Source: Phyllobacterium endophyticum (lineage in GTDB: Bacteria > Pseudomonadota > Alphaproteobacteria > Rhizobiales > Rhizobiaceae). Taken from it: a DNA stretch of 64,000 nucleotides. Shown here in pieces: positions 12,178 through 56,641 of the stretch (position 1 is its first letter; each line of letters opens with the position of its first letter). The stretch covers positions 1,488,001 to 1,552,000 of the forward strand of contig NZ_PGGN01000001.1 in the NCBI RefSeq assembly GCF_003010935.1, given 5' to 3'. The notes beneath the pieces were generated by a model that did not search any database, had not been told where the DNA came from, and saw only the letters and a program-made list of their open reading frames with translations. The position numbers and the translations under genes were made by a program.

Positions 12178-12189
12178 ATAAACGAGTAT

Positions 12190-12471: not shown

Positions 12472-12579
12472 TATCGGGATGCAGGTCGATCTCGCTCAAC
12501 GCCTACCCGATGCAGCCAAACGTCCAGGGTATGAGGTTGGTTCCCGACAGATCCGCTTCGACGCTGCGTGAGCCCAAGG

Positions 12580-12681
12580 TCACTTTTGGCCGTGACTCCA
12601 TTTCTTGAACAAATATACAAGCGTTCCGGTCCAGGCGACGGCCGTGAGCATCGCCAAAATGAGTGCGTAGTGACTGTTCAT
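12580..12681 (-). CDS. Candidate 33-residue single-pass membrane peptide
   Basis: On the minus strand an ATG at 12681 opens a 33-codon frame beginning MNSHYALILAMLTAVAWTGT and continuing LVYLFKKWSHGQK, then TGA. It has one hydrophobic segment of about 20 residues followed by a Lys/Arg-type positive tail, the usual layout of a small inner-membrane protein. A purine-rich GAAGAGGGA lies 9-13 bases upstream, a weak spacing. The frame ends within a region that otherwise holds no gene. I do not recognise the family. Confidence 0.5.
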   Translation of the reverse strand: MNSHYALILAMLTAVAWTGTLVYLFKKWSHGQK

Positions 12682-35487: not shown

Positions 35488-35638
35488 CCCTGTGCGTGGT
35501 TCGCTCTTCGACAGGCTCAGGATGAAGCTCACCATGAGGAAAGGTTGGTGGGCTGCATGTTATCCGTCAACGTTGCAGAGCCTGGCTTGCTGCAATCAAC
35601 GCAGTTCTGTCATGGTTAGCTTGTCGAACCACGCAGGG
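35488..35638. repeat. Palindromic intergenic repeat, copy 2
   Basis: The outer arms CCCTGTGCGTGGTTCG (35488-35503) and CGAACCACGCAGGG (35625-35638) are complementary, one base bulged, and the interior has GTTAGCTTGTCG near 35615 and CAACGTTG near 35569. The arms, core and position after a gene match the copy at 5646-5764. It lies between the HerA-like stop and the autotransporter start. Confidence 0.78.
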
Positions 35639-35859
35639 CACCGATGCTGGCGAGTACGCCGTACTGCCAAGTGCGACCAGGGCAACTTTAGCGATTAAGG
35701 TATCTATCTAACAACTTGAAAGTGTGTGTTTTCTTGCAACATGCATATTAAATAATCGTGCCTCGAATTCAGGCAGTTGACACAACGGTATACAACCGCA
35801 AGGCTGTACCAGCCATTTTTGTAATTCATATTGCCCGATATTTTCAAAGGACGCTTTTC

Positions 35860-38800: not shown

Positions 38801-39474
38801 TCGACAGCGGCACTTCGAAAGCCTCGGTGGATAGCTATTCTGTCGGGCTTTATGGCGGCACCGCGTGGGACAATCTGCGCTTGAGCCTCGGCACGGCGCT
38901 CAGCCAGAACGAGATCGACGCGGACCGCACGGCGGTCTTTGGCGATCTCGTCAATCGCCACAGCGCTTCCTATGATGCGAAGAGCGTGCAGGTTTTCGGC
39001 GAGCTCGGCTATGCGGTGAGATCCGCCTATGCCGATTTCGAGCCCTTCGCCGCGGCAAGCTATGTGCATCTGAAGACCGGCGGCTTCCAGGAGAACGGCG
39101 GGATCAGCAACCTGAGCGGGCTGGGCGGAACGACCGATCTCACCACCACGACGCTTGGGCTTCGCGCATCGCGCGAGTTTGCGCTGAGCGACCGGGTCAG
39201 CCTGACGGCGCGGGGGCTCCTCGGCTGGAGCCATGCCTTTGGTGACGTGACGCCGGCCGCAAAGCTTGCCTTCGCCGGCGGCCAGCCCTTCGACGTCAAA
39301 GGCTTGGCCGTCGCGCGGGATACCGGCATTGTCGAGGCGGGGTTCGACTTCACGCTGAGCCCATCGAAAGGGATTTCTGGCAACGTGACGACGCTCGGCC
39401 TGACCTATAGCGGGCAGTTCTCCGAGAGTGCCAGCAACAATGCGCTCAAGGCTGATCTGACGGTAAGGTTCTGA
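35860..39474 (+). CDS. Subtilisin-type serine protease autotransporter
   Basis: The product has 1,204 residues from ATG 35860 (AAAGGA about 9 bases upstream; an earlier GTG at 35758 is less likely). The signal ends near AVAQE (residue 46). The S8 catalytic triad is Asp105 (LLDSGTKV), His146 (DGHGTKMAGLLG) and Ser331 (GGTSSATPHAS). A long beta-helical passenger stretch with autotransporter repeat turns (GGELAIAEQAS, GTGTTGDLVLNGG) leads to a C-terminal beta-barrel of about 280 residues ending VRF, as in type V secretion. It would be placed on the outer surface and may cleave itself or host or competitor proteins. Confidence 0.93.
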   Translation: MYAFSGADSARSPFSPSFQRTRCKLLSFVSAAAIAMAMTAVPAVAQELGKYFNADGSRTDNLDTAMQSWRDDPEFKGTWGFAAINAEAAFARGITGKGVTIGLLDSGTKVSHPEFKDKNIKVLSFTGAYADGTPFDIRGDDPKDGHGTKMAGLLGAARNGIPMMGLAYGADLVIGSTGLNDSHDLEFATRPYEYFKLVQEALVESGVRIISNSWGQSPGVTGSLNYLNGFYARAPKPSYLDAMADAANAGVIQVVAGYNERTANPAITPILPHYRPELEKNWVAVANLNAPEELGYSNKCGAAKYWCISAPGDGSTSTSLDDGYASAGGTSSATPHASATLALLMQRFPGLGNNEIRQIMLTTATDIGEAGADAKFGWGRIDIAKAMNGPAQFLSRFNANLGAGVSDTWSNDISQVALDQRQKEEKAEITAWAKRKGEKRWETGAPDPQKSETFIRLTERYMNVSPAAKKLLEDAIAANLPVGFSGQKLRAALASAEADPVASALLALYEKQHPDWTGPFSTATDYTNFLSAYKDERSLAMAIASADPSMAELIENASEYLSSESRTGYLSTKTYEAGLTKSGLGSLTLAGKNTYRGDTIIDGGELAIAEQASIISNAFVNDTGRFSVDGTAANVSVNKGGQLRVSGTGTTGDLVLNGGLASLDGSSGRVAVNSGGRLAGTGKLAELSANAGGAVAPGHSIGILRVDGDATFKPGSVYEVEVAGGGSDRIDAEGKAYLLGGIVSIRPEAGGKALSPSDLVALRDRPYTILTAGDGVTGMFDAVEPRYVFIGASLGYDAISVKATLGRNDVAFASLGSTYNERALLGGIDNSGFGNPLHDMIVVAENKEMPAAVALAINEGLIAPTLAGVLARDASAIGNAAQNRMRAAFNGVTVKEQATTAPLAFAPAQGTKTGDAFDAVTPPPATTALWGEAYGAFAHAAGDGNAAGYSRDTGGFVTGLDGVVAETWRMGVLAGYGNTSLDSGTSKASVDSYSVGLYGGTAWDNLRLSLGTALSQNEIDADRTAVFGDLVNRHSASYDAKSVQVFGELGYAVRSAYADFEPFAAASYVHLKTGGFQENGGISNLSGLGGTTDLTTTTLGLRASREFALSDRVSLTARGLLGWSHAFGDVTPAAKLAFAGGQPFDVKGLAVARDTGIVEAGFDFTLSPSKGISGNVTTLGLTYSGQFSESASNNALKADLTVRF

Positions 39475-39816: not shown

Positions 39817-41004
39817 TTAGCATGCACTAATCATACGTTGTCCCAGAAGCCGGGCCGAAATGGGGAGCAGGGCAGATGCTTGTGCCAATCCCGAAGATCC
39901 AAGCAATGTGGCTACACGAAGATCAGGTTTGGTCAGGGGCTTACGTCCCTCGGTGTCAAGAATTCCGAGGTCGATCTGCGCAAGCATCAATTCCAATATT
40001 TCCCGGGGAAAGAACCCACCCAGAATGATCGTATCGGGATTGATCAGTTGAACGACACTGGCAAGAGGTGAGGAAAGCAGTCTTCCCCGTTCGCAGATCC
40101 AATCACCCAGCTTGCGGTCATTTTGTTTTAACAGTCCCGTCAGATACGGTTCATTGAGGACCTCCAGGGACACGTCAAGGTAATGAGCCAAATCGACAAG
40201 ATTCGGCCGCGGACCGGTCTCAGGAAGAAGCGCGCCTATATTTGCTGCCTGATTGAAGCCTCCACGGAGTAATCTGCTCTCGTACACCGCTCCTCCGCCG
40301 ATGCCGAAATCGAGCGTGATGTAGAATAGACATTTGCTGGAAGTACCCGACCGTTGCGCTTCAAAACTTGCAATACAGTATGCGCCATTATCCCAATAGA
40401 CCGGCAGGTCGAAGTGGTCAGTCATGGCATTGGCAAGACGCTGAAATGGCAGCTTCGCCTGTGTCGGCGTCACCTCGAACAAGGCGCCGTCCTCGTTTAC
40501 AATCGCCGGAATCGCCATGCCGATCCCAAGAACCGGGACTTGCGATGTTTCCAGGAGATCCCGGACATTGTGCAATATCGTTTCGACGATAGCGTCTATC
40601 TCACCCTCGATGGAGGGCAATCTGACCTCGACCACATTTCCGTCGAGGTCGGTGCGCACAAGCGAGTATTGCGTGCCACTTAGATGAATACCAATGGTAT
40701 GATACGCATCCTTCATCAACCACATCCGAACCGCAGGCTGGCCTCGTTCCCCGCTTTGAGGGACGGAACGCTCCTCTCTTACCAGGCCGATCGCCCGGAA
40801 ATTGCCGGCAGCCTTCGTCAGCAATGACTTCGAAACCCCGAGGTGGCGGGCAATTTGCGTGCGGCTCTGGCCGGGATATCTACGAATGTGGCGGAGCACA
40901 GCAAATTCGACGTCCGTTAGTCGAATGCCCTCCGGGCGCAAATGCTTGGTCAACGTCACTCCTCGATATTGCGAGCCAACAAAGAAACTACTTGTTATAT
41001 TCAC
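39817..41004 (-). CDS. ROK-family transcriptional regulator
   Basis: The frame gives 395 residues from GTG 41004. A later TTG at 40953 (after CGAGGAG at 5-base spacing) is a plausible true start. An N-terminal winged helix (LRHIRRYPGQSRTQIARHLGVSKSLLTKAAGNFRAIGLV) precedes a ROK sugar-kinase-like domain (IGIHLSGTQYSLVR, VLGIGMAIPAIV, LDFGIGGGAVY). The kinase residues look incomplete, as in NagC/Mlc regulators, which bind sugars or sugar phosphates. It is divergent from the ABC operon 100 bases away and probably controls it. An inverted repeat GTTCT-N5-AGAAC lies at 41047-41061. Confidence 0.85.
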   Translation of the reverse strand: MNITSSFFVGSQYRGVTLTKHLRPEGIRLTDVEFAVLRHIRRYPGQSRTQIARHLGVSKSLLTKAAGNFRAIGLVREERSVPQSGERGQPAVRMWLMKDAYHTIGIHLSGTQYSLVRTDLDGNVVEVRLPSIEGEIDAIVETILHNVRDLLETSQVPVLGIGMAIPAIVNEDGALFEVTPTQAKLPFQRLANAMTDHFDLPVYWDNGAYCIASFEAQRSGTSSKCLFYITLDFGIGGGAVYESRLLRGGFNQAANIGALLPETGPRPNLVDLAHYLDVSLEVLNEPYLTGLLKQNDRKLGDWICERGRLLSSPLASVVQLINPDTIILGGFFPREILELMLAQIDLGILDTEGRKPLTKPDLRVATLLGSSGLAQASALLPISARLLGQRMISAC

Positions 41005-41046
41005 GTCATGAATTTAATGTATCACCACCACATAAAACATTGAACC

Positions 41047-41061
41047 GTTCTTTTTTAGAAC
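41047..41061. promoter_or_regulatory. Candidate ROK operator
   Basis: GTTCT and AGAAC are inverted across 5 T residues in the divergent region, 40 bases before the ABC ATPase start. Short arms make this weak evidence. Confidence 0.3.
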
Positions 41062-41100
41062 CCGATACTCAAAATCATTTTTCGGCGTCAGCGAGGTGAT

Positions 41101-42168
41101 ATGGCATCTCTTTCCATTAAAAGTGTTTCGAAGACTTTCGCTAATGGCATGTGCGTACTTGATGGAATCAATGTTGATATTTCCTCAGGGGAATTCGTTA
41201 CCCTGCTTGGCCCTTCCGGATGCGGCAAAACGACTTTGCTCAAAGCCATTGCGGGTTTTCACCCGATCACATCGGGTCAATTCCTGATTGATGGCAAGGA
41301 CATTACGCAGCTCTCACCGGAGCAGCGCAACACGGCCATGTGTTTCCAATCCTATGCCCTTTTCCCCCACCTGACCGTGAGCGAAAATATACTGTTCGGT
41401 CCAAGACAGAAGCAAGTCAGCAAAGCTGATTGTGCTGCACGGCTGGCGACGACACTTCGGCAGGTTGACCTTGAATCGCAGGCGGCGAAGTTGCCCTCGG
41501 CGCTCTCGGGCGGACAGCAGCAACGCGTCGCGCTCGGCCGCGCCGTCGCGATGCGACCTGGCGTGATCCTGTTTGATGAACCGCTGTCGAACCTTGATGC
41601 GAAATTGCGCGAGCAAGTGCGTTTCGAGATACGGGCGCTGCAGTCGGAGCAAGGCTTCACTGCCATCTATGTTACCCATGATCAGGCGGAAGCATTGGCC
41701 ATGTCCGACCGTATAGTTGTGCTCAACACTGGCAGAGTCGAACAAATCGGAACGCCATTGGACCTTTATCACCGGCCGGTCAACCGTTTCGTCGCCGATT
41801 TTATTGGCGCTGCCAATATACTGAAAGCGGACGTTGTGGGCCGCGACGGCGACGGCAAGTGGCTGATCGATACTGGCCTGGGTCGCTTGGCAGTCAGTTC
41901 CGCCACTGAACCTGCCGCCTCAAGTATCTATGTCTGCTGGCGACCGGAGGATGCCCGGTTTGTGGCCAACAGTTCGTCCACGCCGAACAACACATTTTCG
42001 GTGCGCGTGCTTGCACAAGCCTTCCAGGGGAATGTGACGGACGTTTTCGTGGAAGGAGCGATGGGCGGGCCGCGATATCGGGTTCAGACCCGTGGCCCCC
42101 TGACAATCGGTTCTATCCAGGATTTTCACGTCGATCCCACCCATATCGCGTTTCTTGAGGCGGCATGA
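41101..42168 (+). CDS. ABC transporter ATP-binding protein (PotA/AfuC-like)
   Basis: The product has 355 residues. The Walker A motif is GPSGCGKTT, the Q-loop is FQSYALFPHLTV, the signature is LSGGQQQRVALGRAV, and the Walker B motif is VILFDEPLSNLDAKLREQ, with the switch His in YVTHDQAEAL. A C-terminal TOBE domain (about residue 270 on) is present. The type serves polyamine, iron, phosphonate or sugar-phosphate importers. AGGTGAT gives a good ribosome site. It is the first gene of a six-gene run and its stop overlaps the next start. Confidence 0.93.
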   Translation: MASLSIKSVSKTFANGMCVLDGINVDISSGEFVTLLGPSGCGKTTLLKAIAGFHPITSGQFLIDGKDITQLSPEQRNTAMCFQSYALFPHLTVSENILFGPRQKQVSKADCAARLATTLRQVDLESQAAKLPSALSGGQQQRVALGRAVAMRPGVILFDEPLSNLDAKLREQVRFEIRALQSEQGFTAIYVTHDQAEALAMSDRIVVLNTGRVEQIGTPLDLYHRPVNRFVADFIGAANILKADVVGRDGDGKWLIDTGLGRLAVSSATEPAASSIYVCWRPEDARFVANSSSTPNNTFSVRVLAQAFQGNVTDVFVEGAMGGPRYRVQTRGPLTIGSIQDFHVDPTHIAFLEAA

Positions 42169-43040
42169 TGGAAGCTCGGAATCCCGCATCGCGACGGAGG
42201 ATGTTGCTCATCATGCTGCTCCTGCCGGGGATAGGCCCGATCGTCCTTCTCGTGGGAAGCGTCCTTGCTATGGCCGTTGCCCAATCCGTTGGCTATTTCA
42301 ACTTCTCAGGTGCGAGCGGCTTTTCGCTCGAGTTCTGGGCAAAACAGACTGCGAGCCCGATTCTGGGTAGTTCCGTTGTCTATTCCTTGAGAATTGCCTT
42401 TGCATCGGCGTTGCTTTCAACGGCGCTCGCCTATCCGGTAGCATTGTGGCTGCGTACACCTTTTCCGGGTTCGGCGAGCGTAAGCGCGTTGTTCCGCGCG
42501 CCCTTGCTGGTTCCCGGCCTTGTAGCCGCCTTTCTCTTCGTCAACGTCATCTCATTTCATGGTTTTCTCAACGAAGCCCTCATTGGCCTTGGCCTGATCG
42601 ACAAGCCACTACGCATGCAAAACGACCGGTACGGACTCGGCGTCATTTTCTTACAAGTGTGGAAGAATATGCCGTTTGCGCTTCTGCTCCTGTCGTCATC
42701 TGTTCGTGCCATCCACGGCGATCTTCTGGATGCCGCCCGTGACCTTGGTGCGGGTACTTTTTCAAGGTTCTTCAAGGTAATTTTGCCTTTGACGCTGCCG
42801 GCATTGCAGGCTGCCTTGTGTCTTGTCTTTATTGGTGCGGCAGGAGATTATTCGTTTCAGGTCATTGCTGGCCCGACAGGTGTCAGTTCGCTCGCTCAGC
42901 ACATGTATACCGTCCAGCATGAATTCGGCTCATGGAACGAGGCCGCGGTCGTGGCAGTCATACTCATGATCGTGGCGCTTACCGGTTCATTTCTGCTAGT
43001 CGCCATCAGCAAACTGGCCATTGCGCGCAGGTGGCTGTGA
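42165..43040 (+). CDS. ABC transporter permease (first)
   Basis: The product has 291 residues, with ATG 42165 or 42168 as start. It has six predicted membrane segments (MLLIMLLLPGIGPIVLLVGSV at the start) and the EAA loop DLLDAARDLGAGTFSRFFKVILP. It is translationally coupled to the ATPase gene before it and the second permease after it (TGATG). Confidence 0.92.
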   Translation: MMEARNPASRRRMLLIMLLLPGIGPIVLLVGSVLAMAVAQSVGYFNFSGASGFSLEFWAKQTASPILGSSVVYSLRIAFASALLSTALAYPVALWLRTPFPGSASVSALFRAPLLVPGLVAAFLFVNVISFHGFLNEALIGLGLIDKPLRMQNDRYGLGVIFLQVWKNMPFALLLLSSSVRAIHGDLLDAARDLGAGTFSRFFKVILPLTLPALQAALCLVFIGAAGDYSFQVIAGPTGVSSLAQHMYTVQHEFGSWNEAAVVAVILMIVALTGSFLLVAISKLAIARRWL

Positions 43041-43858
43041 TGCAGAAGCTGAACAGATGGTTTGCACTTTTCCTCGTACCGATTTTGATTGTCTGGCTGT
43101 GTATACCATTCGGCATGGCCATTCTCTGGTCGCTGGTCGATCCTGATTATCCATGGAGCTACCCGGACCTGTTTCCGCCGAAGCTTTCCTTCCAACGATG
43201 GGTGGATATGTGGCAAACAACCAATCTTGCCGGAGCGCTCGTTAACAGTTATCTGCTCGCGCCAACCGTCGCGGTGATAACCCTGGTGCTCGCCATGCCA
43301 ACAGCCTATGCGCTTGGCCGGCTGGAGTTCAGGCTCAAGCCGTTAGTCCAGCTTGTTTCACTGCTTCCGCTGGTTCTGCCAGGCTTCGTGATCGCGCTTT
43401 TCTTCACTGCCATGTTGTTCAGACTTGGGCTCTATTCCAAATTCACCGGCATTGCCATTGGCCACAGCGTTCTCTTTTTGCCCTATGCAATCCGCATCCT
43501 CACGACCTCTTTTTCCCAAGTGCGGCAAGATCTTGTCGATGCTGCCCGCGACCTTGGCGCAAGTTCATTGAAGTGCTTCTCAACGGCCTATCTCCCGGTC
43601 CTCAAACCCGGCATTCTTGCCGCCTTGATTATCGTCTTCATCCAGAGCATTGAAGAATTCGCACTGTCGTTCGTTCTTGGGTCACCGGATTTCACGACTG
43701 TCCCAACGATCCTCTATTCTTATCTCGGTTATAATTTTATCCGGCCAAACGCAGCGGTCGTCTCGCTTGTCCTCGTCATTCCCAACGTCGTCCTCATGCT
43801 TTTGCTTGAACGTATGCTCAAGAGCGAAGGCGCTATCATTTCCGGTGGCAAGGGGTAA
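43040..43858 (+). CDS. ABC transporter permease (second)
   Basis: The product has 272 residues from ATG 43040, which overlaps the previous stop. The membrane segments include WFALFLVPILIVWLCIPFGMAI, and the coupling loop is DLVDAARDLGASSLKCFSTAYLP. With the first permease it makes a heterodimeric channel of the spermidine/2-aminoethylphosphonate/ferric type. Confidence 0.92.
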   Translation: MQKLNRWFALFLVPILIVWLCIPFGMAILWSLVDPDYPWSYPDLFPPKLSFQRWVDMWQTTNLAGALVNSYLLAPTVAVITLVLAMPTAYALGRLEFRLKPLVQLVSLLPLVLPGFVIALFFTAMLFRLGLYSKFTGIAIGHSVLFLPYAIRILTTSFSQVRQDLVDAARDLGASSLKCFSTAYLPVLKPGILAALIIVFIQSIEEFALSFVLGSPDFTTVPTILYSYLGYNFIRPNAAVVSLVLVIPNVVLMLLLERMLKSEGAIISGGKG

Positions 43859-43890
43859 ATCCGGAACGCAATCAATAGAAAGGTCATATT

Positions 43891-44964
43891 ATGTTCAAGC
43901 ACCTTATTTCAATTGCCGCCGTCGCTATGGTTAGCCTCTCGGGAACTCTCCCGGCCGATGCGAGCGAGCTTGCCTCCAGGCCTTGGGAAGACATTGTGGC
44001 GGAAGCCAAAGCGGAAGGTCAGGTAGTCTGGTATCAATGGTACACGCAGCCGAAATTTCGCGAGCTGGTGCGCGAATTCGAGAAGGCCTACTCCATCAAG
44101 GTCACCATTCCCGATGGGACACCAGATGGCAATCTGAGTAAATTCTTGGCCGAGCGTGACAGGCCGCAGGGCGATATAGACGTGATTTCCATCGGGGGCG
44201 ACCAATTGCCAAAAATCGATGTCACGGCAATGTTTGCCGGCCCGCTGACCGGGCTGCCCAATTACAGCGAGTTGCGCACGAAGATCAATGGAGGGGACGG
44301 CAAGGGCTATGCCGTGGCGTTCTGGGGCAATCAGACCGGTTTAGCCTATGACCCTTCCCGCATCAGCGCTGCCGCTTTGCCGCAAAGTTTCGCGGAATTT
44401 ACCGAGTGGATCAAACAGAACCCGCTTGATTTTGCCTTCAATGATCCCCGCGGTGGTGGTGCTGGTAACGCCCTTATTCAGGCAGTGGTTCGCGTCACTG
44501 TAGCAAATGGGGATCTTGAACGTGGCAACTATCACGCGGCTTGGGACTGGTTCACCTCGAACAAGGAAAGTTACGGTTTCACGGCATCGAATGCCGACAG
44601 CCTGACGCGGCTGAACGGTGGAGAATTCCAGATAGTCGCCGCTTGGGCCGATCACCTCGCTGCGCTGCAGCAGAAGGGCGAAATCGATAAGCGGATGCAA
44701 TTCTATATACCCAGGTTTGGCATGCCGGGCGGCGGCAATGTCGTCGGTATTGCGGCCAATGCAAAACACAAGGCTGCGGCCCTGTTATTCATCGATTGGC
44801 TTACTTCGGCGGCTACACAGAAGCGGCTTCACAACGAGATGGGCGCTCTTTCCGTAAGTGGCGCTCCCACAGCACAGCAAACACATTCAACCGATTGGCT
44901 TCCAGTAAAACAAACTGAAGCGATCAAGTCGGAATTCATCAAAGAGGTCGTTCTTGCCCATTAA
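43891..44964 (+). CDS. ABC transporter solute-binding protein
   Basis: The product has 357 residues. It carries a Sec signal (MFKHLISIAAVAMVSLSGTLPADAS). The mature part resembles iron/polyamine/hexose-phosphate type periplasmic proteins (WEDIVAEAKAEGQVVWYQW, YAVAFWGNQTGLAYDPSRI, GIAANAKHKAAALLFIDWL). The ligand is not clear from sequence. The enzymes encoded after it suggest a phosphorylated ligand. Its last codons overlap the TTG start of the next gene. Confidence 0.88.
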   Translation: MFKHLISIAAVAMVSLSGTLPADASELASRPWEDIVAEAKAEGQVVWYQWYTQPKFRELVREFEKAYSIKVTIPDGTPDGNLSKFLAERDRPQGDIDVISIGGDQLPKIDVTAMFAGPLTGLPNYSELRTKINGGDGKGYAVAFWGNQTGLAYDPSRISAAALPQSFAEFTEWIKQNPLDFAFNDPRGGGAGNALIQAVVRVTVANGDLERGNYHAAWDWFTSNKESYGFTASNADSLTRLNGGEFQIVAAWADHLAALQQKGEIDKRMQFYIPRFGMPGGGNVVGIAANAKHKAAALLFIDWLTSAATQKRLHNEMGALSVSGAPTAQQTHSTDWLPVKQTEAIKSEFIKEVVLAH

Positions 44965-45706
44965 TACCGAAAAAATCCTGTCAAACAGGACGGAAAGCTC
45001 TATTGCGCCTTCAGGCGTCGGAACAAAATTCAATCCCGATGGGAGCGTGCGGCCATTTCCCGGCAATACGATCATTTGCCACCTGCCAGCGGACAGCGCG
45101 CTGCGCGTACCGCTTGAGGCACTGTATGATGCATTGGCACAATCGGAATTCGCCGCCTTTCTTGCTCTACTGCCGCCCGCAAGCTGGCACATGACCATAT
45201 TCGAAGGCGTTTGCGACCAGGTGCGGCAGCCCGGATTGTGGCCATACGACTTACCGCTGGATGCAACGCTTGCCGAATGCAACGATTTGTTCGACAGGAA
45301 ATTGGTTCACTTCGACCTTGGTTGCGAATTGCCGCTGCAGATGCAATTGAGCGGGATAAGGCCGCTTCTCAATGGCATCACGCTTCGTCTCGTTCCCGCG
45401 CGGGCCCCTATCGAGGCAGAAATGCGTGAATTGCGCGATCGGCTGTCCAGACTCCTCAACATCCGCCACCCACGTCATGAGACCTATGAGTTCCATCTCA
45501 GCATCGCCTATGCGATCCGGTTCCTTTCGGAAACGCAACAGGAAGAATTGATGCGGCTGATCGAAAACGTCTTGCCCTCCGCAAGCGCAGAAATAGTTCT
45601 CGGCGCTCCGGAATTCTGTATTTTCAACGACATGTTTGCCTTCCACCGGCGTTTCTATCTGCGAAAGGCAAAGGGGCATAATCATCATGTTTGCATTTCT
45701 GGGTGA
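44954..45706 (+). CDS. 2H phosphoesterase-superfamily protein (DUF1868)
   Basis: The product has 250 residues from a TTG start (AGAGG 6 bases upstream, no other start in the frame before conserved sequence). Two H-x-T/S motifs, the mark of 2H phosphoesterases, are visible: WHMTIFEG (about residue 76) and FHLSIAYAI (about residue 180). Members of the superfamily open cyclic phosphates or cleave phosphodiesters. It sits between a solute-binding protein gene and an IMPase-like gene, so it may act on an imported phosphodiester or cyclic polyol phosphate. Confidence 0.8.
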   Translation: MPINTEKILSNRTESSIAPSGVGTKFNPDGSVRPFPGNTIICHLPADSALRVPLEALYDALAQSEFAAFLALLPPASWHMTIFEGVCDQVRQPGLWPYDLPLDATLAECNDLFDRKLVHFDLGCELPLQMQLSGIRPLLNGITLRLVPARAPIEAEMRELRDRLSRLLNIRHPRHETYEFHLSIAYAIRFLSETQQEELMRLIENVLPSASAEIVLGAPEFCIFNDMFAFHRRFYLRKAKGHNHHVCISG

Positions 45707-46460
45707 CGTCGCAAGCAAGGCTGGAGAATTGGCCAAGCACTTCCAGCAAACGCCAGACAGACTGGTCGTTGAGGCCAAGGCGCCGCTTGATATCGTGACC
45801 GCGGCCGACCGCGCCGTCGAAGCGTTGATCGTGTCGACCATTCACCAGGCATTTCCGAGCGACGCATTTCTGGGTGAGGAAGGCGCGCAACGAAGCGGCA
45901 GCTCGGGACGGCTCTGGGTCATTGATCCGATTGATGGCACCGCCAACTATATGCATGATCTACCGTGGTGGGCCATATCGATCGGTCTGTTGCAGGACGG
46001 CAAGCCTGCAGCTGGCATTGTGCATGCGCCAGCTATGGGCATCACCCTCTCGGCTGTTGTGGGGCAGGGCGTAAGGCTCAACGGTCAAGTGTTCACTTTG
46101 CCACCGTGCAAGACAAGCCCGGTCGCGCCAATTGTTTTTACCGGGTGCGCGCCGGGATTGCGCGCAGGCGGCCTCGACACCGAGGCAAGCCAGTTCATTC
46201 GCGATCATCTGTCAGGTGTCGAGCGCAATCTTGGCAGTGCGACCGCAAGCCTCCTGCAGGTCCTGTCCGGTCATGCGCACCTTTATCTTGGTTTCGGTGA
46301 AAACCTTTGGGATGTTTGCACCGGCGCGATCATAGCCGATGAGCTGGGCTTGATGCATTCATTGGATTGGGAGACGGCGGCGGATGGTGCACCCTTCAAT
46401 TTCACCTGCGGAATGCATCCCTGGATTGAGCAGGCGAAACAAAAGCTTGTCTTAGTATAG
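45687..46460 (+). CDS. Inositol-monophosphatase-family phosphatase
   Basis: The product has 257 residues from ATG 45687; an earlier TTG at 45636 is possible. The metal-site motifs DAFLGEEG, WVIDPIDGTANYMH and the late LWDVCTGAIIADELG are those of the IMPase family. It dephosphorylates inositol-phosphate-like polyol phosphates in a Mg2+-dependent way; other sugar or nucleotide phosphates are possible. It overlaps the 2H phosphoesterase gene by 20 bases and ends the operon. Confidence 0.88.
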   Translation: MFAFLGDVASKAGELAKHFQQTPDRLVVEAKAPLDIVTAADRAVEALIVSTIHQAFPSDAFLGEEGAQRSGSSGRLWVIDPIDGTANYMHDLPWWAISIGLLQDGKPAAGIVHAPAMGITLSAVVGQGVRLNGQVFTLPPCKTSPVAPIVFTGCAPGLRAGGLDTEASQFIRDHLSGVERNLGSATASLLQVLSGHAHLYLGFGENLWDVCTGAIIADELGLMHSLDWETAADGAPFNFTCGMHPWIEQAKQKLVLV

Positions 46461-46632
46461 TATAACGGGAAGTATATTCTCAATTGATACGTTAGTAGTA
46501 TTTTAATGACGCGCGTTGTGCATTAAACGTTAGTGGATGTCAGTAAGGGATATGAGTTAACAAATATTAATTGTCCAGAGCTGAATACAAATATTTCAAT
46601 TAATATTTTTACAAATTGTTCAGGAGGCTCAA
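46461..46632. promoter_or_regulatory. AT-rich intergenic region before the GDPD gene
   Basis: This region is clearly AT-rich relative to the flanks, without a terminator of the usual form after the IMPase-like gene. CAGGAGG sits 5 bases before the TTG at 46633. It may carry a promoter for the GDPD gene. Confidence 0.45.
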
Positions 46633-48951
46633 TTGCGATCTAGGATTTGTCTTTTACTAGCTGCCCTTGCCTTGTGCATCGGCCATACGGCTCCCGCCGA
46701 TGCGGCCTGTTATGATCCGCGAGAGGTAATCAGACAGACCAAAAATCCTCGCAATACCACGATTATGACCGTCATGCATCGTGGTCTATGGCTTTCCAAT
46801 GACAACCGTCTGCCGGAAAATAGTATCGGCGCGGCCTTGGCGGCCGATCAAACCTGTATTCCGGGGATCGAATTAGATGTGCGGCTGACAAAGGATCGTG
46901 TCCCTGTGCTGATGCACGATGCAACCTATGGGCGCTTGACCGACGTTTTTAGGCAGGAGCCCGGTAACACCGGTAATCCTAATAAATTCTATCCCGACGA
47001 GCCCAATCCAACGGGCTATAATCCTAAAGTGGTTGACCTTAATTGGGTTGACAACGATGAAAAAGGCAATCCGGCAACTGACAAGGGGGCTCGTTTCCTG
47101 AAGTTGCTGGATAATCCCAATTCGTCAAATCGCAGCGACACAGGCAACGTAACCAATTACTATGTCGAAAGTGTCAAGACCTTTTATGATCAATATCTGG
47201 ACAACCGGATGTCAACGGTCGTATTTTTTCACATAGTTGATCCTGCTGCCACCGAATATGTTCTTCAAGAAATTTACAAGGACCAACGCGACTATAATCA
47301 GGGGTATGGCGCCCGGTTGCGAGCGGCAGAATTCACGATCATCAAATTCCCCGCATGGTCGTTTCCAACGCCTGACGAATACCGGGAGACGCTAAGAAAA
47401 GCCAAGAAAGCAGCTGGCGTTGATGAATCGGCTCCCGATCCCCTAGCCTATCCCTACTATGGTCCTCAAACCTTGCAAGAGCTCATTGATAATACCAAAA
47501 ACAAGACCATAGGCAAGATTACAGACCCTTACACGCAATCCATCGAACTTTGGATCAAAGCCGAAGATGTAAGGATCGGTGTTGAACTCAACGTGAAAGA
47601 TCCAGCACACCTGCTGCAGCCAGAATATGAGAGGGCAAAAGGTAAAGTAGCGCTGGGATCTCTCCATGCAGTCCCGGATTATCCCCGTGTGCATCCGGGG
47701 ACAAGTCCGGGATACCGGATACCGCATGTCAAAGAAGGAACAAAGGGCCAGACAATTGCAGCGAAAGACGGCTTCTATATCGGCTCAATCGGCGCGTGCT
47801 GCTATGAACTGTCCGATAAGCTGACAGGAGGCGACAAGATTGACAGACGCCTTGATGTCAATTTCATCGTCGGAACAGACAAGGGCAAGCCGACCAACAC
47901 CATAATTACAACCGATGACGAAGATGCGGTCGCCCAAGCCATCGCTAAAACTCATGGGCGATCGGCGCTTTGGCCTTACTCCCCCCTTCTGAGGACCGTA
48001 CTTGCATTTGATTACCAGATGAAGCCTTACCATAGCATCATCCGCGACAACGGTAAGGTCGTTACTGCAACCATCGGAAGCACCCCGCTCACTTGGCAGA
48101 CGGATTCAAATTCAAGCAGCGCTGCGTTTTCCCAATTCAATGGTCAAGGCTATCTTTTCTTTGAGCGGGCGGGATCAAACTACCATGAGTTGCTCTTCAA
48201 GAATTTCAACGGATCTACTATGTCGGACGGTGAATGGGCATTGTCTCCAGGGCAAAACCTCTACAGTCGCGGCCGTCCTGCGATCGCCACATCAGATGGT
48301 TACCTGCATTACTTTGGCAATAACTTCAATGTACTTGAAACATTGACGCTTGGTCGCCTTGGATATTGGGGGCAATTAAGCCGTGGACGGACCCTTGGCC
48401 ATGGGGGCCTTCGAGCTGAAGTGAAGCCGGTTCAAACGGGTTACAAGATAGGCGGGTCACCCGCGGCATCTGCATTTGGCGGAAGTGTTGTTGTGCTGTT
48501 CAAGGATTTTGAGAATAGACTACTATATTCTCTCTATGATGGCTACCAAATGAGAGTTCCTTGGGCAGTAAAGATCGGCGCGAAGCATGCAGTGGCGCAA
48601 CTGGTACGAGGTACGGAATTTACATCCATCCCGTTTAACGGAAGATTGTTTGTTTTCCTGTCAGGTTTTCAATTCGCCGAGGAATCCATTATGTGTATGA
48701 CATTTAATGGAACGGGATGGAGCGAACTCACCTGGGTTCCCAATACTACTTCGTATGGGCTTCCGGCAGTGGCGATCGAACGATCGCACATTGTACTCTA
48801 TACTCGCTCTGCTGATGGTAAAAACCGGCTGATGCATAACTCGCTGAGCTTTCCCGACGGTCAAGCACCCTCATGCAATGGCGAATGGTCAGGCAATTCG
48901 GAAGTTCCAGGGCCCGTACTATTGCACACCGCGCCGGTTGCACTTCAATGA
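46633..48951 (+). CDS. Exported glycerophosphodiester phosphodiesterase with C-terminal repeat (propeller-like) domain
   Basis: The product has 772 residues from TTG 46633 (CAGGAGG 5 bases upstream). A Sec signal is visible (MRSRICLLLAALALCIGHTAPADAA). The GDPD catalytic half has MHRGLWLSNDNRLPENSIGAA, GIELDVRLTKDRVPVLMHD and a further acidic site near ELNVKDP. The second half, about 450 to the end, has repeats like GSPAASAFGGSVVVLF and GLPAVAIERSHIVLY, as in beta-propeller or lectin-like domains. GDPDs split glycerophosphodiesters to glycerol-3-phosphate and an alcohol (choline, inositol, glycerol). The gene is lower in GC than its neighbours. It may be horizontally acquired. Confidence 0.85.
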   Translation: MRSRICLLLAALALCIGHTAPADAACYDPREVIRQTKNPRNTTIMTVMHRGLWLSNDNRLPENSIGAALAADQTCIPGIELDVRLTKDRVPVLMHDATYGRLTDVFRQEPGNTGNPNKFYPDEPNPTGYNPKVVDLNWVDNDEKGNPATDKGARFLKLLDNPNSSNRSDTGNVTNYYVESVKTFYDQYLDNRMSTVVFFHIVDPAATEYVLQEIYKDQRDYNQGYGARLRAAEFTIIKFPAWSFPTPDEYRETLRKAKKAAGVDESAPDPLAYPYYGPQTLQELIDNTKNKTIGKITDPYTQSIELWIKAEDVRIGVELNVKDPAHLLQPEYERAKGKVALGSLHAVPDYPRVHPGTSPGYRIPHVKEGTKGQTIAAKDGFYIGSIGACCYELSDKLTGGDKIDRRLDVNFIVGTDKGKPTNTIITTDDEDAVAQAIAKTHGRSALWPYSPLLRTVLAFDYQMKPYHSIIRDNGKVVTATIGSTPLTWQTDSNSSSAAFSQFNGQGYLFFERAGSNYHELLFKNFNGSTMSDGEWALSPGQNLYSRGRPAIATSDGYLHYFGNNFNVLETLTLGRLGYWGQLSRGRTLGHGGLRAEVKPVQTGYKIGGSPAASAFGGSVVVLFKDFENRLLYSLYDGYQMRVPWAVKIGAKHAVAQLVRGTEFTSIPFNGRLFVFLSGFQFAEESIMCMTFNGTGWSELTWVPNTTSYGLPAVAIERSHIVLYTRSADGKNRLMHNSLSFPDGQAPSCNGEWSGNSEVPGPVLLHTAPVALQ

Positions 48952-49472
48952 AAGACACGGGCCCTCACAATTTTGTCGTTGCGCAAACACCCCCCTTGCG
49001 AGCGCGTTCGACTCGGTTCCGGCTTCCTCATCGGCGAGCCTTGAACGGCCGCATCATTCCTGTCCGGGCTGTGCAGGGATGACGCGACTGCCATGCCTGG
49101 TCGATGACGATGCGGGAGCGTCGCGCGTTTTTGCTACTTGCCCTGCCCCCGGGATCTGGCGAAAACCGCGCCTGGGACTTCGCGCCAAGACGTACGAGCC
49201 TGCGAAGCGTGTTTGGATAGGCTCAGGCACAACCCGGCAAACAGCAGTCATGAAAAAGGGAGACCGTCACCAAGGCCATAGCGTCGGTGACGAAAAGGAC
49301 GGAATAGGCGTTATGAGGCTCGTAACATGGCTTGTGGAGATCAGAGGAACAAATCCACGATAAAAAGGTAGCCATCGCGCTGGCTTCGATCCCGGTTTCT
49401 TCCACCCTCACGGTCCGACTCTAAAGTACGCTCCTCGTGGAGCCATCCGGGCATGGACGAGATCCTCCCATC
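48952..49472. other. Convergent intergenic region, no recognised gene
   Basis: The region lies between the GDPD and phospholipase C genes. Several open frames occur but none has convincing homology, start or ribosome site. No clear terminator hairpin was seen. Confidence 0.5.
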
Positions 49473-51941
49473 TTATTCGATGAACCGAATGGAAGGTGTC
49501 GAACTTTCTTCGATGAAAAACTGCCCTGATGATTTCGGATGGGCCGATAGTGAGGTGGCAGGTATAGCAGGGCTGCCGGCGGTTTCGACGGGCGGCCTTT
49601 TGTCGACCGTTGCTACGGGAAGATCGTCTATTGTTAAGAACGGATCAGTTCGGCTGGGCTCACCATTTTCGATGTGTCCGGCGATGCGCCGCTTGAATGG
49701 AGCGGCTGTTTTTCCATGCTTGTCGGTAAATTCGACTGTCACATCGTACCAAGCTTCTCTTGTGGGAATCTGAACGACCTTCCTGGTATAGCCTGTCTGA
49801 TCCATCGGGAGTGGTACCATGATGAAGTCTTGCGGCGTACCATCGGCACCCCATATTGGCGAATATTTGTTGGATATCTTGAGAAAGCGGCCTTCTTTCC
49901 AACAACCGGTTATATCGAGATAAAGCTCAAGGTCCTGCCAGGGGTCGATGGCAGTTTCACCAACATAGACGGTGATCTTGGCATCGATATTTGCGTCATT
50001 GTTGCCCTCCAGTTCATAAAGATAGCCGTTCGGACCATGGATAGAAAACCCATACTTGTCGGATATGGGTAGTTCAGGGTTCAAAGGTTCTTCCTTCACA
50101 ACTGTATATCTCTTCGGAGCACCGGCGGAAACGTTATCGTAGGCATAGAAAGAGACGCCTGCGGAGCTCGTGGACAAGCAGAGATTGAGCTTGCTGTTTT
50201 GCGCATCGATAGTGCCGTTGACGCTAAAGTAATAGGGCAACGGTCGCGCTTTGCGCGTGCCGTCAAGGTTCGATGTCTGGTTTGAGGCAAACCATGTGAG
50301 CGGATTGTCCACTTTAGGAAGATTCTTGGTGTTGTCTGCAGGTACAGTGGGCGACTTGGAAAATAATGGACCGCGGCGGTTAAATTCCTTTTTGACAAGG
50401 CCTGTCGTCTTTGCATCAGGCTTGCCGAAATCAAGGGCCGAAGTCAGATCACCTGCGACCGCGCGCCGCCAGTCGGAAATATTGGGTTCCGCAATGCCAA
50501 ATCGTGCCTCAAGGAATTGGAGCACGGATGTGTGGTCGAAAACCTGTGAACACACCCAACCGCCCTTTGACCAAGGCGATATCACTATACAGGGTACGCG
50601 CGGCCCGAAGCCAAGGGGATTCCGCCCATCTATTTCATGCTTGAGGCTGTCTTGCAAAGAGGAGGACACTTCACCATCCGCACCGGTCACGGGCGGCATG
50701 GGCGGCACGATATGGTCAAAATATCCATCGTTTTCATCATAGTTGAGGATAAGGACAGTCTTGCTCCACACTTTCGGATTGGCAACGAGGCCACTCAAAA
50801 CTTTGTTTATGTAATAAGCGCCCCTGGTGCTTCCTCCAGAGTGCTCGGAGTAGCATTGTGGTGCAACTATCCACGAAATATTTGGAAGCTTATTACGCCA
50901 GACATCGAACTCAAATTCGTAAAGCGTACGGTTTGTTACGCCTTTTTTTGTCAGCGCGTCCAGCTTGCCATGATCAACTTTGACTTCCTTTCCTACGCAA
51001 AAATCTTTCAAAAACTTAAGAAATGTTTCCTTGAATAATGGAGTTTCATGAATCGGATCGGGTAAATAGCAGCGTCCATTCGTCCAAAAGCAACCTTTGA
51101 CCGGTTTATTGCGATAGGCATTGAAGGTTTCCAGCGCATTATCGGTGAAGTTATCAGTTGCAAAGTCTAAAGCTTGGCCGGTTCCACCCTGATAGGTTCG
51201 CCAGCTGATTTTTTTCGTCTTGTTGGCTGGCAGTGCGTTGAATTCTTCTATTCGCTCGGGATAGGTCTTCCAGGCATGGCCACCCGAGATCCTTTTCAGA
51301 AACCCCCCATTCGGGTCAGACGCTGTGCCCGACATCAAATGCAACCGATTTGGATATGTGTCGCCATGCACCGAGGAGTGGTAATGGTCGCAAATCGTGA
51401 ATGAATTGGCAAGATGCCGGTGGTAGCTCACGTCCTGGTGTTTGAGATGCCCCATCACCAGCACATCTTTTTTCGCTTCAAGCCACCGGTCATAGCTTCC
51501 CTTGTTCCAAGCCTTTATCCCCGAATCCATCCCGTGATGGGTGCCACGTATGTTTTCTCCATTCTTGCCGTAATCAATATGGAATGGAGCAACGAATTCC
51601 GCCTTTGGATCTACACCGCAACGCTTTTCGGCCGTCATGCTTGCGATGGCTTTGTTGGAATTCGGCTGAAACCACGTTGCCTTACCTGTCGATGGCAATA
51701 CGACCGGGCGAGGGTCCGTATAGCCGCGTACGCCGTTATAGGTGCCAAAATAATGATCGAACGATCGGTTTTCCTGCATAAGGATCACCACGTGCTCGAC
51801 GTCGAGTATAGTTCCAGTGACCCTGTTGGGCTCGATGGCGAGGGCCTGCTGGATAGCTGGAGGCATTGCGCTGAGGCCCGCTGTGCCCGCTGCGGTCACA
51901 CCCATCATCTTCATAAATTCACGGCGGTCGATAGCAGTCAT
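49473..51941 (-). CDS. Phospholipase C, phosphocholine-specific (Tat-exported)
   Basis: The product has 822 residues from ATG 51941. The N-terminal Tat signal is MTAIDRREFMKMMGVTAAGT. The phosphoesterase core has VVILMQENRSFDHYFGT, HGDTYPNRLHLMSG, NYDENDGYFDHIVPP and DHTSVLQFLE. C-terminal repeats of the bacterial PLC domain (DUF756) follow, from about residue 590. It hydrolyses phosphatidylcholine or sphingomyelin to diacylglycerol and phosphocholine, outside the cell. It converges on the GDPD gene. Its GC content is close to that of the GDPD gene, lower than the rest of the window. Confidence 0.9.
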   Translation of the reverse strand: MTAIDRREFMKMMGVTAAGTAGLSAMPPAIQQALAIEPNRVTGTILDVEHVVILMQENRSFDHYFGTYNGVRGYTDPRPVVLPSTGKATWFQPNSNKAIASMTAEKRCGVDPKAEFVAPFHIDYGKNGENIRGTHHGMDSGIKAWNKGSYDRWLEAKKDVLVMGHLKHQDVSYHRHLANSFTICDHYHSSVHGDTYPNRLHLMSGTASDPNGGFLKRISGGHAWKTYPERIEEFNALPANKTKKISWRTYQGGTGQALDFATDNFTDNALETFNAYRNKPVKGCFWTNGRCYLPDPIHETPLFKETFLKFLKDFCVGKEVKVDHGKLDALTKKGVTNRTLYEFEFDVWRNKLPNISWIVAPQCYSEHSGGSTRGAYYINKVLSGLVANPKVWSKTVLILNYDENDGYFDHIVPPMPPVTGADGEVSSSLQDSLKHEIDGRNPLGFGPRVPCIVISPWSKGGWVCSQVFDHTSVLQFLEARFGIAEPNISDWRRAVAGDLTSALDFGKPDAKTTGLVKKEFNRRGPLFSKSPTVPADNTKNLPKVDNPLTWFASNQTSNLDGTRKARPLPYYFSVNGTIDAQNSKLNLCLSTSSAGVSFYAYDNVSAGAPKRYTVVKEEPLNPELPISDKYGFSIHGPNGYLYELEGNNDANIDAKITVYVGETAIDPWQDLELYLDITGCWKEGRFLKISNKYSPIWGADGTPQDFIMVPLPMDQTGYTRKVVQIPTREAWYDVTVEFTDKHGKTAAPFKRRIAGHIENGEPSRTDPFLTIDDLPVATVDKRPPVETAGSPAIPATSLSAHPKSSGQFFIEESSTPSIRFIE

Positions 51942-52589
51942 AATTCTATAGATCCTCAAATGGGAAAAGGCGCCAAAGCGCCAGAGATATTTTCAAATAC
52001 AGCGAATTGCGGGAGGTGGAAAAATCCTCAAGGTAGAATTCCTCGACATAAAATTGTCCAGAGATGGGAGTGCAAATTTGTGTAGTGGAAAGGACCACCG
52101 GTCAATTCAACGAAAGTCTAGGCCGAACGGATTTGGACTGAGGCACGTGCCGGATGGCCCGCCACCGGCGCGAAGACCTCGCGTTGCGAGCCGGCCGGCC
52201 CGTTCGGGATCAGTCATGGTGCGTGGCGGCCATGTCGGTCTTGATGAACTCCGGCGACCGGATCAGCGCATTTGTCCGCTTTGTCTTGCCGCTTTGTCGA
52301 AGAACGGATCACTAGAACCGGCTGTCCGTCCAGCAACAGGCACGGCAAATGATTTTCCCCTATCAATATGATCCCGAGACCAAGAAATGGCAGCATTGGG
52401 CAAAGATACCCAATAATTATCTTGCGGCCGGAGGACCTGGCATCTTCTGATCTGCCTTTTGGGTTGCCCGCTGGCCCGTCCCATACACTCAGGACCAGCG
52501 GGCAATAGAGCTGCCGCTCGCGATGGCCGCTTGCGACAAGGCAAATCCTCTCCGAATGAAACCCTCGAGCGAGCGCCAGGCCGATGCCG
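51942..52589. other. Region between the phospholipase C and shikimate-kinase remnant, no gene supported
   Basis: Open frames here have no recognisable family. A 33-codon plus frame at 52349-52450 (MIFPYQYDPETKKWQHWAK...) is protein-like in composition but has no ribosome site and no known relatives. The surrounding DNA is likely degenerate. Confidence 0.4.
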
Positions 52590-52768
52590 CTATAGCCATA
52601 TCGAGATTCCCTGCTCAGCGATCCGTGCGCGGGTCTCGGCATTCGTGAAGGCGCCGCCGCCGGTCGCCACCACTTTCGGTTGTCCGGCAAGGAGCCGCGC
52701 GAGCACCAGCCGCTCGCCGTCACGAAAATACGGCTCGCCGCAGTCTCTAAATCTGATATCCGCAACGA
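52590..52768 (-). pseudogene. Shikimate kinase fragment
   Basis: On the minus strand, one frame reads [20 protein letters not shown] and continues with [24 protein letters not shown], then TAG at 52590-52592. This is the middle of shikimate kinase, which has FRDGE, the core ATGGGAF motif and the ISIWL strand. The N-terminal P-loop part is missing, no start lies ahead of it, and the stop falls where the family continues. It is about 55 residues of a 175-residue enzyme, so it is a remnant. It adjoins the iron operon. Confidence 0.8.
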
Positions 52769-52862: not shown

Positions 52863-53669
52863 TTAAGCGTGGCTGACCGAGGCATAAGGCAGGCAAAAGG
52901 GTGTTCCATTGATCGGGTGCGGAATGACATGCGCCTCGACGCCAAAAACGGATTTTATCAAGCTTTGCGTCAAGAGGTCGGCAGGACTTCCGACTGCATA
53001 AATACGGCGGTCCGCGACTGCGATAATGTGATCGGCATATTGAGCAGCGTGATTGAGGTCATGAACGACCATAACCACGGTGCGGGCATGCTTCTGGTTG
53101 AGCTCCTTTAGAAGTTCAAGCACATCGAACTGGTGGGCAATATCCAGATAGGTCGTGGGCTCGTCAAGCAGCAGGATCGCGGTTTCCTGGGCCAGTGCCA
53201 TAGCAATCCACGCCCGTTGACGTTGACCGCCGGAAAGGCGATCAAGCGGACGCTCGCCCAACTCAGTCATGCTGGTCGCTGCAAGAGCTGTTTCCACCAT
53301 CTCCTCATCATGTCCGCTGAAGCGGGAAAATAATCCCTTATGAGGATGGCGACCGAAACGGCAGAGCTGCCGCACGGTCAATCCATCCGGCGATATCGGA
53401 CTCTGTGGCAGAAGCGCGAGCTTTCGCGCTACCTGCCGGCTAGACATTTGCGAGATTTCCTTGCCGTCAAGATAAACCACACCTTTGAAGGGTTGTATAA
53501 AACGTCCGAGTGCTTTTAGTAAGGTTGATTTGCCGCTGCCATTAGGCCCGATCATTGCGGTGATCCGACCATCCGGAATAGAAACGTCGATGTCCCGAAG
53601 TACCTGGGTTTCGGCATAGCCGAGTGTGAGCTGTTCTCCCGATAGCCGGAATTGCATCGTTCTAGTCAT
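52863..53669 (-). CDS. fecE: Ferric dicitrate-type ABC transporter ATP-binding protein, FecE-like
   Basis: The product has 268 residues. The Walker A motif is GPNGSGKST, the signature is LSGGQRQRAWIAMALAQ, the Walker B motif is ILLLDEPTTYLD and the switch His is in MVVHDLNHA. The FecE/FepC group drives uptake of iron-siderophore complexes. It is last in the operon and overlaps the permease gene before it by 8 bases. Confidence 0.9.
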   Translation of the reverse strand: MTRTMQFRLSGEQLTLGYAETQVLRDIDVSIPDGRITAMIGPNGSGKSTLLKALGRFIQPFKGVVYLDGKEISQMSSRQVARKLALLPQSPISPDGLTVRQLCRFGRHPHKGLFSRFSGHDEEMVETALAATSMTELGERPLDRLSGGQRQRAWIAMALAQETAILLLDEPTTYLDIAHQFDVLELLKELNQKHARTVVMVVHDLNHAAQYADHIIAVADRRIYAVGSPADLLTQSLIKSVFGVEAHVIPHPINGTPFCLPYASVSHA

Positions 53670-55673: not shown

Positions 55674-55679
55674 TGCGGT

Positions 55680-56609: not shown

Positions 56610-56641
56610 TTTAGCCCTGCTCGGTTTCTTACGGCCCGTTA

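Follow-up and report, generated by a model that had tools for sequence, protein, structure and literature searches.

A stretch of 64,000 nucleotides of the genome of Phyllobacterium endophyticum (contig NZ_PGGN01000001.1, positions 1,488,001 to 1,552,000), called the window here, contains an operon at window positions 39817-46460 that comprises a ROK-family transcriptional regulator, an ATP-binding cassette (ABC) importer, a DUF1868/2H phosphodiesterase and a phosphatase of the IMPase family. It is probable that this operon serves to take up and degrade a sugar phosphodiester of the agrocinopine/xanthosan class, the ligand being most likely a diester that contains galactose or glucose. The reading comes principally from the genes that accompany related importers, among which one of several unrelated phosphodiesterases is usually found.

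Gene content and gene associations are direct observations, whereas for this organism we infer the class of the ligand, each step, the order of the reactions and the regulation by product. The periplasmic binding protein would capture the sugar phosphodiester and the ABC importer would carry it into the cell. The 2H enzyme would then hydrolyse the phosphodiester to a sugar monophosphate and a second sugar or alcohol, and the IMPase-family enzyme would strip the phosphate to leave the free sugar. The ROK protein, bound to a palindrome in the divergent promoter, would let go of the DNA upon sensing a product. The components are as follows, with coordinates given as window positions.

39817-41004, minus strand: ROK-family transcriptional regulator (PF00480, 54.6 bits, plus a MarR-type HTH), divergent from the genes that follow
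41000-41013, no strand: candidate ROK operator TTCACGTCATGAAT, an inverted repeat in the gap between the ROK and ATPase genes
41101-42168, plus strand: ABC importer ATPase (PF00005, 119.8 bits, plus TOBE_2)
42165-43040, plus strand: ABC importer permease 1 (PF00528)
43040-43858, plus strand: ABC importer permease 2 (PF00528), the start placed by a TGATG overlap
43891-44964, plus strand: periplasmic solute-binding protein of 357 amino acids (PF13416, 92 bits), the proposed sugar-phosphodiester receptor
44954-45706, plus strand: DUF1868/2H phosphodiesterase (PF08975, 134 bits; cut-off 21), proposed to cleave the diester once imported
45687-46460, plus strand: IMPase-family phosphatase (PF00459, 168 bits), proposed to dephosphorylate the released sugar phosphate

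A first-pass annotation had described a six-gene run of importer, 2H and IMPase genes with a divergent ROK gene, and scans with Pfam and NCBIfam found every gene that it named. The two H-x-T/S motifs that it saw in the 2H enzyme are also present, as H79-x-T81 and H181-x-S183. The stop and start of the two permease genes overlap, so that a longer frame from 42932 is unnecessary, and the start of the IMPase gene fits better at 45687 than at 45636. The binding protein also matches PF01547 and PF13343 in Pfam.

Interchangeable phosphodiesterases beside the importer

When 84,980 species genomes were scanned with a five-row alignment of the binding protein, by short peptide patterns and not exhaustively, 78 loci were obtained (L-numbers denote related loci and G-numbers genomes). 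The tree of binding proteins retains 61 of 87 sequences. Eight were dropped as fragments (L156, L157, L159 and L162) or as distant or partial (L164, L166, L167 and L168), and 18 at an identity of at least 95%. Removal of the window, L073 and L074 (both found via the 2H enzyme), the distant L165, L170 and L087 leaves 55 non-redundant loci. The hosts of the 78 loci are Rhizobium, Agrobacterium vitis, Dickeya, Pantoea, Buttiauxella, Salmonella diarizonae, an Escherichia, Roseibium, Thalassospira, Proteus, Providencia, Pasteurellaceae, Marinomonas, many Rhodobacteraceae and spirochaetes, a Treponema among them. The gene order ROK / ATPase - permease - permease - binding protein is broadly conserved and a ROK gene is near 48 of the 55 loci, while the spirochaete loci L097 and L113 have the binding protein placed first. 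At E 1e-30 the binding protein is found in 7 of 151 genomes of the family (strongly in the window's own genome, G115 and G080) and in 2 of 385 genomes of the class (the window's own and G659). The Escherichia copy of the locus is matched over at least 80% in 2 of 5426 complete E. coli genomes.

Gene clustering showed a slot, situated either after the binding protein or beyond the divergent promoter, whose occupant is one of several enzymes unrelated to one another. These are DUF1868/2H, a short GDPD (PF03009), a GDPD with DUF4996, and a type I phosphodiesterase/NPP (PF01663). With profiles built from these same loci and run on every frame of 60 residues or more, one of the four types scores more than 80 bits within 7 kb of the importer in 72 of the 78 loci. 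The six loci without any of them are L141 and five distant relatives (L164-L168). In L141 a phosphodiester glycosidase (PF09992, 63 bits; 11214-12566) adjoins the binding protein, and is possibly a fifth interchangeable enzyme. One of the four types exceeds 100 bits in 53 of the 55 non-redundant loci, in 39 of these on the same strand within 500 bases; the two exceptions are L141 and L155, and next to the importer of L155 there is a PF01663 gene, though a shorter one (66.8 bits). A GDPD of either type occurs in 36 of the 55, the 2H enzyme in 16 and NPP, alone or with another, in three. As a control, DUF1868 genes found apart from the importer had a GDPD or NPP above 60 bits within 7 kb in 0 of 35 loci.

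On the tree of binding proteins the phosphodiesterase label requires at least 15 changes between seven states ('none' included), where shuffled labels give a mean of 30.4. The changes forced by well-supported branches alone number four for GDPD, two for 2H and five for GDPD with DUF4996, and the 2H label taken by itself needs three changes on this tree. Unrelated enzymes swapped in a single slot point to one shared type of bond, and an imported phosphodiester is the best explanation of the repeated replacement. The earlier proposal that importer, 2H enzyme and IMPase jointly handle a phosphodiester is therefore upheld by the 72 loci together with L141, whereas the phospholipid source proposed for that phosphodiester is not, as discussed below.

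Three further loci (L088-L090) are not part of the count of 78. L089 and L090 have binding proteins that are 26-27% identical, and both also have a GDPD and an IMPase in the neighbourhood; on these two loci the link to phosphodiesters may extend past the importer family. In five Pantoea loci (L109, L114, L116, L119 and L156) a gene that by eye is porin-like follows the GDPD, and could be an outer-membrane partner.

PF08975 is present in single copy in the 5.5-Mb genome, and occurs in 19 of 151 genomes of the family and in 23 of 249 of the order. Most of the other copies are stand-alone, an importer of the window type being present in 2 of the 37 neighbourhoods fetched (L073 and L074, whose counterparts of permease 2 have 58-59% identity with that of the window). 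Given this rarity, the presence of the 2H gene near the importer in 16 of 55 loci indicates that the pairing is not due to chance. In an alignment of 2H enzymes the H and T of the first motif and the H of the second are found in 55 of 55 sequences, and the S/T of the second in 53 of 55. In a tree from which six near-duplicate rows and the partial L110 were omitted, a branch with a support of 99 splits 28 stand-alone rows from 27 others, of which 20 are importer-linked, four stand-alone, two ytf-linked and one Tct-linked. The stand-alone DUF1868 proteins, such as Atu0111 (PDB 2fsq, a homologue of the window enzyme at E 6.5e-27), thus have the Pfam family and the catalytic motifs in common with the window enzyme but lie mostly on the other side of this branch; Atu0111 itself is outside that tree. 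Pfam still describes DUF1868 as a domain of unknown function. No relative of the 2H enzyme was present in the viral contigs searched.

The 2H enzyme is also found with importers of other kinds. In L072 (4560-10209) it is co-directional with a complete galactofuranose-type importer YtfQ/YtfR/YtfT/YjfF (YtfQ, 557 bits against a cut-off of 510), and L076 groups beside L072 by its 2H enzyme and neighbouring matches. In L075 (9408-15769) the 2H and ROK genes are divergent from TctC-TctB-TctA and an IMPase, the importer here being tripartite. A Kosakonia plasmid carries DUF1868, ROK and GDPD genes together, adjoining an importer of the window type.

The accessory genes of these loci (agrocinopine synthase, sucrose phosphorylase, aldose epimerase, alpha-galactosidase, galT and galE) point to sugars. 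A sodium/phosphate (Na/Pi) transporter is near 5 of the 55 loci and galT near three, and galT or galE accompanies the operon in some marine and Vibrio loci. The galT gene lies between the binding protein and the 2H enzyme in L143, L146, L147 and L161 (confirmed with Pfam in L143 only), and is accompanied by a GDPD in L151. On the Vibrio plasmid pVS127 galT and galE adjoin a ROK-GDPD pair, and on plasmid pW43C the order is GDPD - IMPase - galT. The window genome has no match to the galT model TIGR00209, which would make a phosphatase the natural outlet for a sugar 1-phosphate. The phosphatase directly follows the 2H enzyme in the window and in L094. L113 and L151 have a HAD phosphatase instead, and in L112 (Avibacterium) an Agp-like glucose-1-phosphatase (11271-12581; 406 bits, cut-off 425) follows the binding protein.

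The candidate operator was examined with the pattern T[TA]CA[TC]GTCATG[AC]A[CT], which occurs eight times in the 1.59 Mb of the 87 loci read on both strands. All eight occurrences are in the ROK-ATPase gap of the window's clade (the window, L091-L096 and L171), although the pattern was derived from these same sequences, so that this is a check of specificity and not an independent test. The candidate operator overlaps the annotated start of the ROK gene, and the true start may therefore lie downstream.

Relation to the agrocinopine and xanthosan systems

The first-pass annotation knew of no named system with this set of genes. Two systems now stand against that statement, for the enzymatic logic of the acc operon is the same and the xan cluster combines a ROK protein with a 2H enzyme.

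The acc operon of pTiC58 and pAtK84b, like that of the window, has an ABC importer, a phosphodiesterase and an IMPase-family phosphatase (AccG, PF00459), and cleavage of agrocinopine by AccF-type enzymes has been shown by others. On pAtK84b the genes are accR, accA-E, two accF and accG, then a Na+/phosphate symporter, an aldose epimerase and sucrose phosphorylase. The window IMPase is the best match of pAtK84b AccG among 12138 frames from 87 loci (34.5% identity, E 2e-46). The other components differ. AccA is an SBP_bac_5 protein (PF00496) with ABC partners of the dipeptide type, whereas the window protein belongs to PF13416/PF01547/PF13343; AccR is not a ROK protein by its annotation; AccF is related to GDPD, where the window has the PF08975 2H enzyme; and the window operon is without the Na/Pi, aldose epimerase and sucrose phosphorylase genes found near acc. 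The window thus has an AccG-type IMPase, and neither an AccA-type binding protein nor an AccF-type GDPD.

The importer family itself is found on some Ti plasmids. Twelve of 23 plasmid records with the binding protein are from Agrobacterium, and the six of these that were examined all have the ROK gene, the importer, a GDPD, an IMPase and traR. On pAvCG412 the operon adjoins agrocinopine synthase and RolB, in the order ROK / ATPase - permeases - binding protein - GDPD - IMPase - Na/Pi - sucrose phosphorylase - traR. The layout of pTi_CFBP2407 is the same, with the synthase present. Plasmid pTiAF3.44 has an aldose epimerase in the position where others have sucrose phosphorylase, and A. vitis F2/5 has aldose epimerase, sucrose phosphorylase and alpha-galactosidase. 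The remaining two, pAtAG67 and pTiLBA1191, are similar, with several genes of pTiLBA1191 appearing broken. No synthase is annotated in the examined stretches of pTiAF3.44, A. vitis F2/5, pAtAG67 and pTiLBA1191. A synthase of the pAvCG412 type is present in the A. vitis loci L099 and L153, and the pAvCG412 synthase and the two sequences closest to it (87-99.7%, against 58% for the next) are on the importer-bearing plasmids CP055267, KY000060 and MZ773647. The Na/Pi protein of the pAtK84b acc region has 80-86% identity to those of L169 and L170 and to the pieces in L172 (83-84% for L169 and L170), and its aldose epimerase is 67% identical to that of L170. A candidate synthase, acsx, and acc genes are reported in PMC7365797; PMC4526662, PMC10410297, PMC8554961, PMC6546132 and PMC10745273 also belong to the literature consulted. 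From these gene contents we infer that the agrocinopine cassette recurs on these plasmids with the window-type importer and ROK protein probably replacing the AccA-type importer and AccR. If the importer family is a receptor for such compounds, a second system for the uptake of agrocinopine may exist on some Ti plasmids.

The comparison with xanthosan draws on the relevant sections of PMC12807533 (Science 2025). AvrBs2 of Xanthomonas uses UDP-galactose to produce xanthosan, a cyclic dimer of galactose phosphate. Xanthosan is imported by XanT and is cut to Gal-1-P by XanP, a 2H enzyme clustered with the ROK gene xanR, and mutation of either HxT/S motif of XanP abolishes its activity (PMC12807533). 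The xanR-xanT-xanP cluster therefore resembles the window in having a ROK protein and a 2H enzyme with HxT...HxS motifs that acts on a sugar phosphodiester, and the spacing of the motifs is 102 residues in the window enzyme and 105 in XanP by the numbering of PMC12807533. XanT is an outer-membrane TonB receptor, and those sections of PMC12807533 name no inner-membrane importer or IMPase for the xan cluster. A Pfam scan of the ten main window proteins (39817-52765) found no TonB-dependent receptor.

Alternative ligands and the meaning of the operon

Several observations weigh against a sugar phosphodiester as ligand for the window operon. Of the 55 non-redundant loci, 15 have an IMPase nearby and 16 the 2H enzyme; the co-occurrence of 2H, IMPase and importer, which the first-pass annotation had proposed as a check, is thus borne out in part, the full trio being present in only three (L094, L134 and L135). 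The closest relatives of the window (L091-L093, L095 and L096) have no IMPase nearby; among them is Rhizobium esperanzae (L091), whose binding protein is 68% identical. The Ti-plasmid enzyme is a GDPD, not a 2H enzyme, and is only 35-36% identical to AccF. XanP, assigned to the 2H-phosphoesterase superfamily in PMC12807533, may lie outside PF08975. L088 (3393-7601), with a binding protein 38% identical, has none of the four enzymes within 7 kb; the closest gene that could serve instead is of the sulfatase family (PF00884, and in part matching PF01663) and lies just upstream of the ATPase gene. An iron-containing alcohol dehydrogenase (PF13685) is also upstream in L088. We know of no ligand or activity for any protein of the importer family. 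Finally, the glycerophosphodiester importer Ugp likewise works with a GDPD, so that glycerophosphodiesters are possible ligands too. Ugp with UgpQ resembles the window family in pairing an ABC importer with a GDPD for phosphodiesters. It differs in belonging to another ABC subfamily, by comparison of family scores, and in being without ROK, 2H and IMPase, and the window ATPase scored 332.5 bits with the UgpC subfamily model NF008653, below the cut-off of 432.

Two genes that follow the operon bear on the source of the ligand.

46633-48951, plus strand: large GDPD-like protein (PF03009, 42 bits), exported, possibly an accessory enzyme
49473-51959, minus strand: phospholipase C that carries a twin-arginine motif (TIGR03396, 643 bits; cut-off 580)

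The first-pass annotation had placed an exported GDPD and a Tat-type phospholipase C downstream, and both genes are there, the second on the opposite strand. It read them as secreted enzymes that release a glycerophospho- or inositol phosphodiester from phospholipid headgroups for the importer. Their position adjoining the operon is in keeping with this, as are the frequency of GDPDs of either type, the commonest partners of the importer family, the large exported GDPDs beside the importer in Proteus and Providencia, and the inositol phosphates that are the classic substrates of IMPases. However, the two genes are not conserved with the operon. The phospholipase C has no match at E 1e-4 in any of the 78 loci (16 of which are shorter than 15 kb), the exported GDPD is found in one of 151 family genomes, i.e. 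that of the window, and relatives over most of its GDPD domain are present in only two of the 78 loci (Proteus L123 and Providencia L157). Moreover the partner genes of the relatives concern sugars and opines, not lipids. We therefore regard the scavenging of phospholipid headgroups as unlikely.

The GDPD gene begins 172 bases past the IMPase gene and seems by eye to encode its own signal peptide, so that its membership of the operon is uncertain. The flanks of the operon (about 35.6-39.6 kb and 52.9-56.6 kb) find no more than weaker, partial matches in two same-genus genomes. In the same-genus genomes G063 and G149 no match of the binding protein reaches E 1e-30. The partial flank matches, and the lack of the binding protein and the GDPD in two same-genus genomes, make the binding protein, the GDPD and the flanks look like accessory genes. 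Three features were observed in or near these flanks. A short dispersed repeat at 35492-35636 has dozens of copies at about 70-97% identity in its own and two same-genus genomes, and folds better than shuffled sequences (z -2.7). A large protein at 35758-39474 resembles by eye an autotransporter of the subtilisin type, part of which matches several places in the same genus. On the minus strand, 52863-56645 is by eye an ABC operon of the ferric-siderophore type (ATPase, two permeases and binding protein), which one same-genus genome matches in parts only, at about 65-68%.

The window importer could instead be of the AfuABC kind and take up a hexose monophosphate, the purpose of the neighbouring phosphodiesterases being unrelated. 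We think this very unlikely. A second look at Foldseek matches of the binding protein, short of a full search, found many ligand classes alike, and a search of solved structures by sequence gave no close relative. Ferric-ion binding proteins of the FbpA kind bind iron by an adjacent pair of tyrosines, and there is no YY pair in the 357 amino acids of the window protein. Iron or a polyamine was rejected as ligand on this ground, and because the two NCBIfam matches of the binding protein are both far below cut-off.

Least likely of all is a closed circuit, in which the exported GDPD-like protein would make a sugar phosphodiester in the manner of AvrBs2 or agrocinopine synthase and the operon would retrieve it, since the arginine reported as essential in AvrBs2 (R544) would correspond to a C in the window GDPD, and UDP-sugars would presumably be out of reach for an enzyme exported by Sec to the periplasm. 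The idea arises from a long insert between the catalytic HD and the final D of the window GDPD, as in agrocinopine synthase, and from a CY motif common to both in the aligned insert. AvrBs2 R544 would align with the R of RCYD in agrocinopine synthase, and C is found at this position in the window, L123, L157 and pMLa. The window has CCYE where the synthase has RCYD, and thus probably lacks the AvrBs2-family residues R544 and D547; RCYD is taken as the AvrBs2 motif from its R-x-x-D spacing, in an alignment at about 25% identity or less that is not beyond doubt. The NCBIfam score for AvrBs2 (34.2 bits) was discarded as proof of kinship because the model is not specific, ordinary GDPDs reaching 30.7 and 32.5 bits. 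Relatives of the GDPD do adjoin the importer in L123, where a large exported GDPD-like protein is encoded at 9447-11396, and in L157 (about 2922-4337), where identity to the window GDPD is 25% over 468 aligned columns; on pMLa a relative by its GDPD domain has no importer in the stretch shown. Several genes of L157, including those for ROK and the binding protein, are broken into frames. AvrBs2-like proteins have been reported in Providencia stuartii and Salmonella enterica (PMC12807533). The exported GDPD may work extracellularly on the compound that the operon imports, and is less likely to make it.

The preferred reading, import and breakdown of a sugar phosphodiester, places the operon with systems of a known kind, i.e. 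acc and xan. What is new is the importer family, its range, the exchange of phosphodiesterases and importers, and a proposed role for DUF1868. In the open-access PMC literature no publication was found on DUF1868 or on agrocinopine with the ROK family, nor, judging by titles and the starts of abstracts, one that describes the window-type importer. On balance we favor the broader view that these are widespread, unnamed sugar-phosphodiester loci of bacteria from plants, animals and the sea, in which importers (window-type ABC, AccA, YtfQ and TctABC) and phosphodiesterases (2H, two GDPD types, NPP and phosphodiester glycosidase) have been exchanged freely while the chemistry stayed constant. Sugar phosphodiesters would then be in general use among bacteria and no peculiarity of two plant pathogens. 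The window-type ABC importer would be the main inner-membrane one, and a second, unrecognised agrocinopine importer on some Ti plasmids.

Xanthosan and agrocinopine show that bacteria can own a private nutrient in the form of a sugar phosphodiester. If our reading is correct, a search with the binding protein lists species that consume such compounds, including some strains of E. coli, Salmonella diarizonae, Pasteurellaceae, Proteus, Treponema, Vibrio and marine Rhodobacteraceae, for which no study of sugar-phosphodiester consumption was found in the open-access PMC literature. It would also give a likely role to the importer-linked members of DUF1868, and provide a candidate inner-membrane importer for xanthosan-like compounds.

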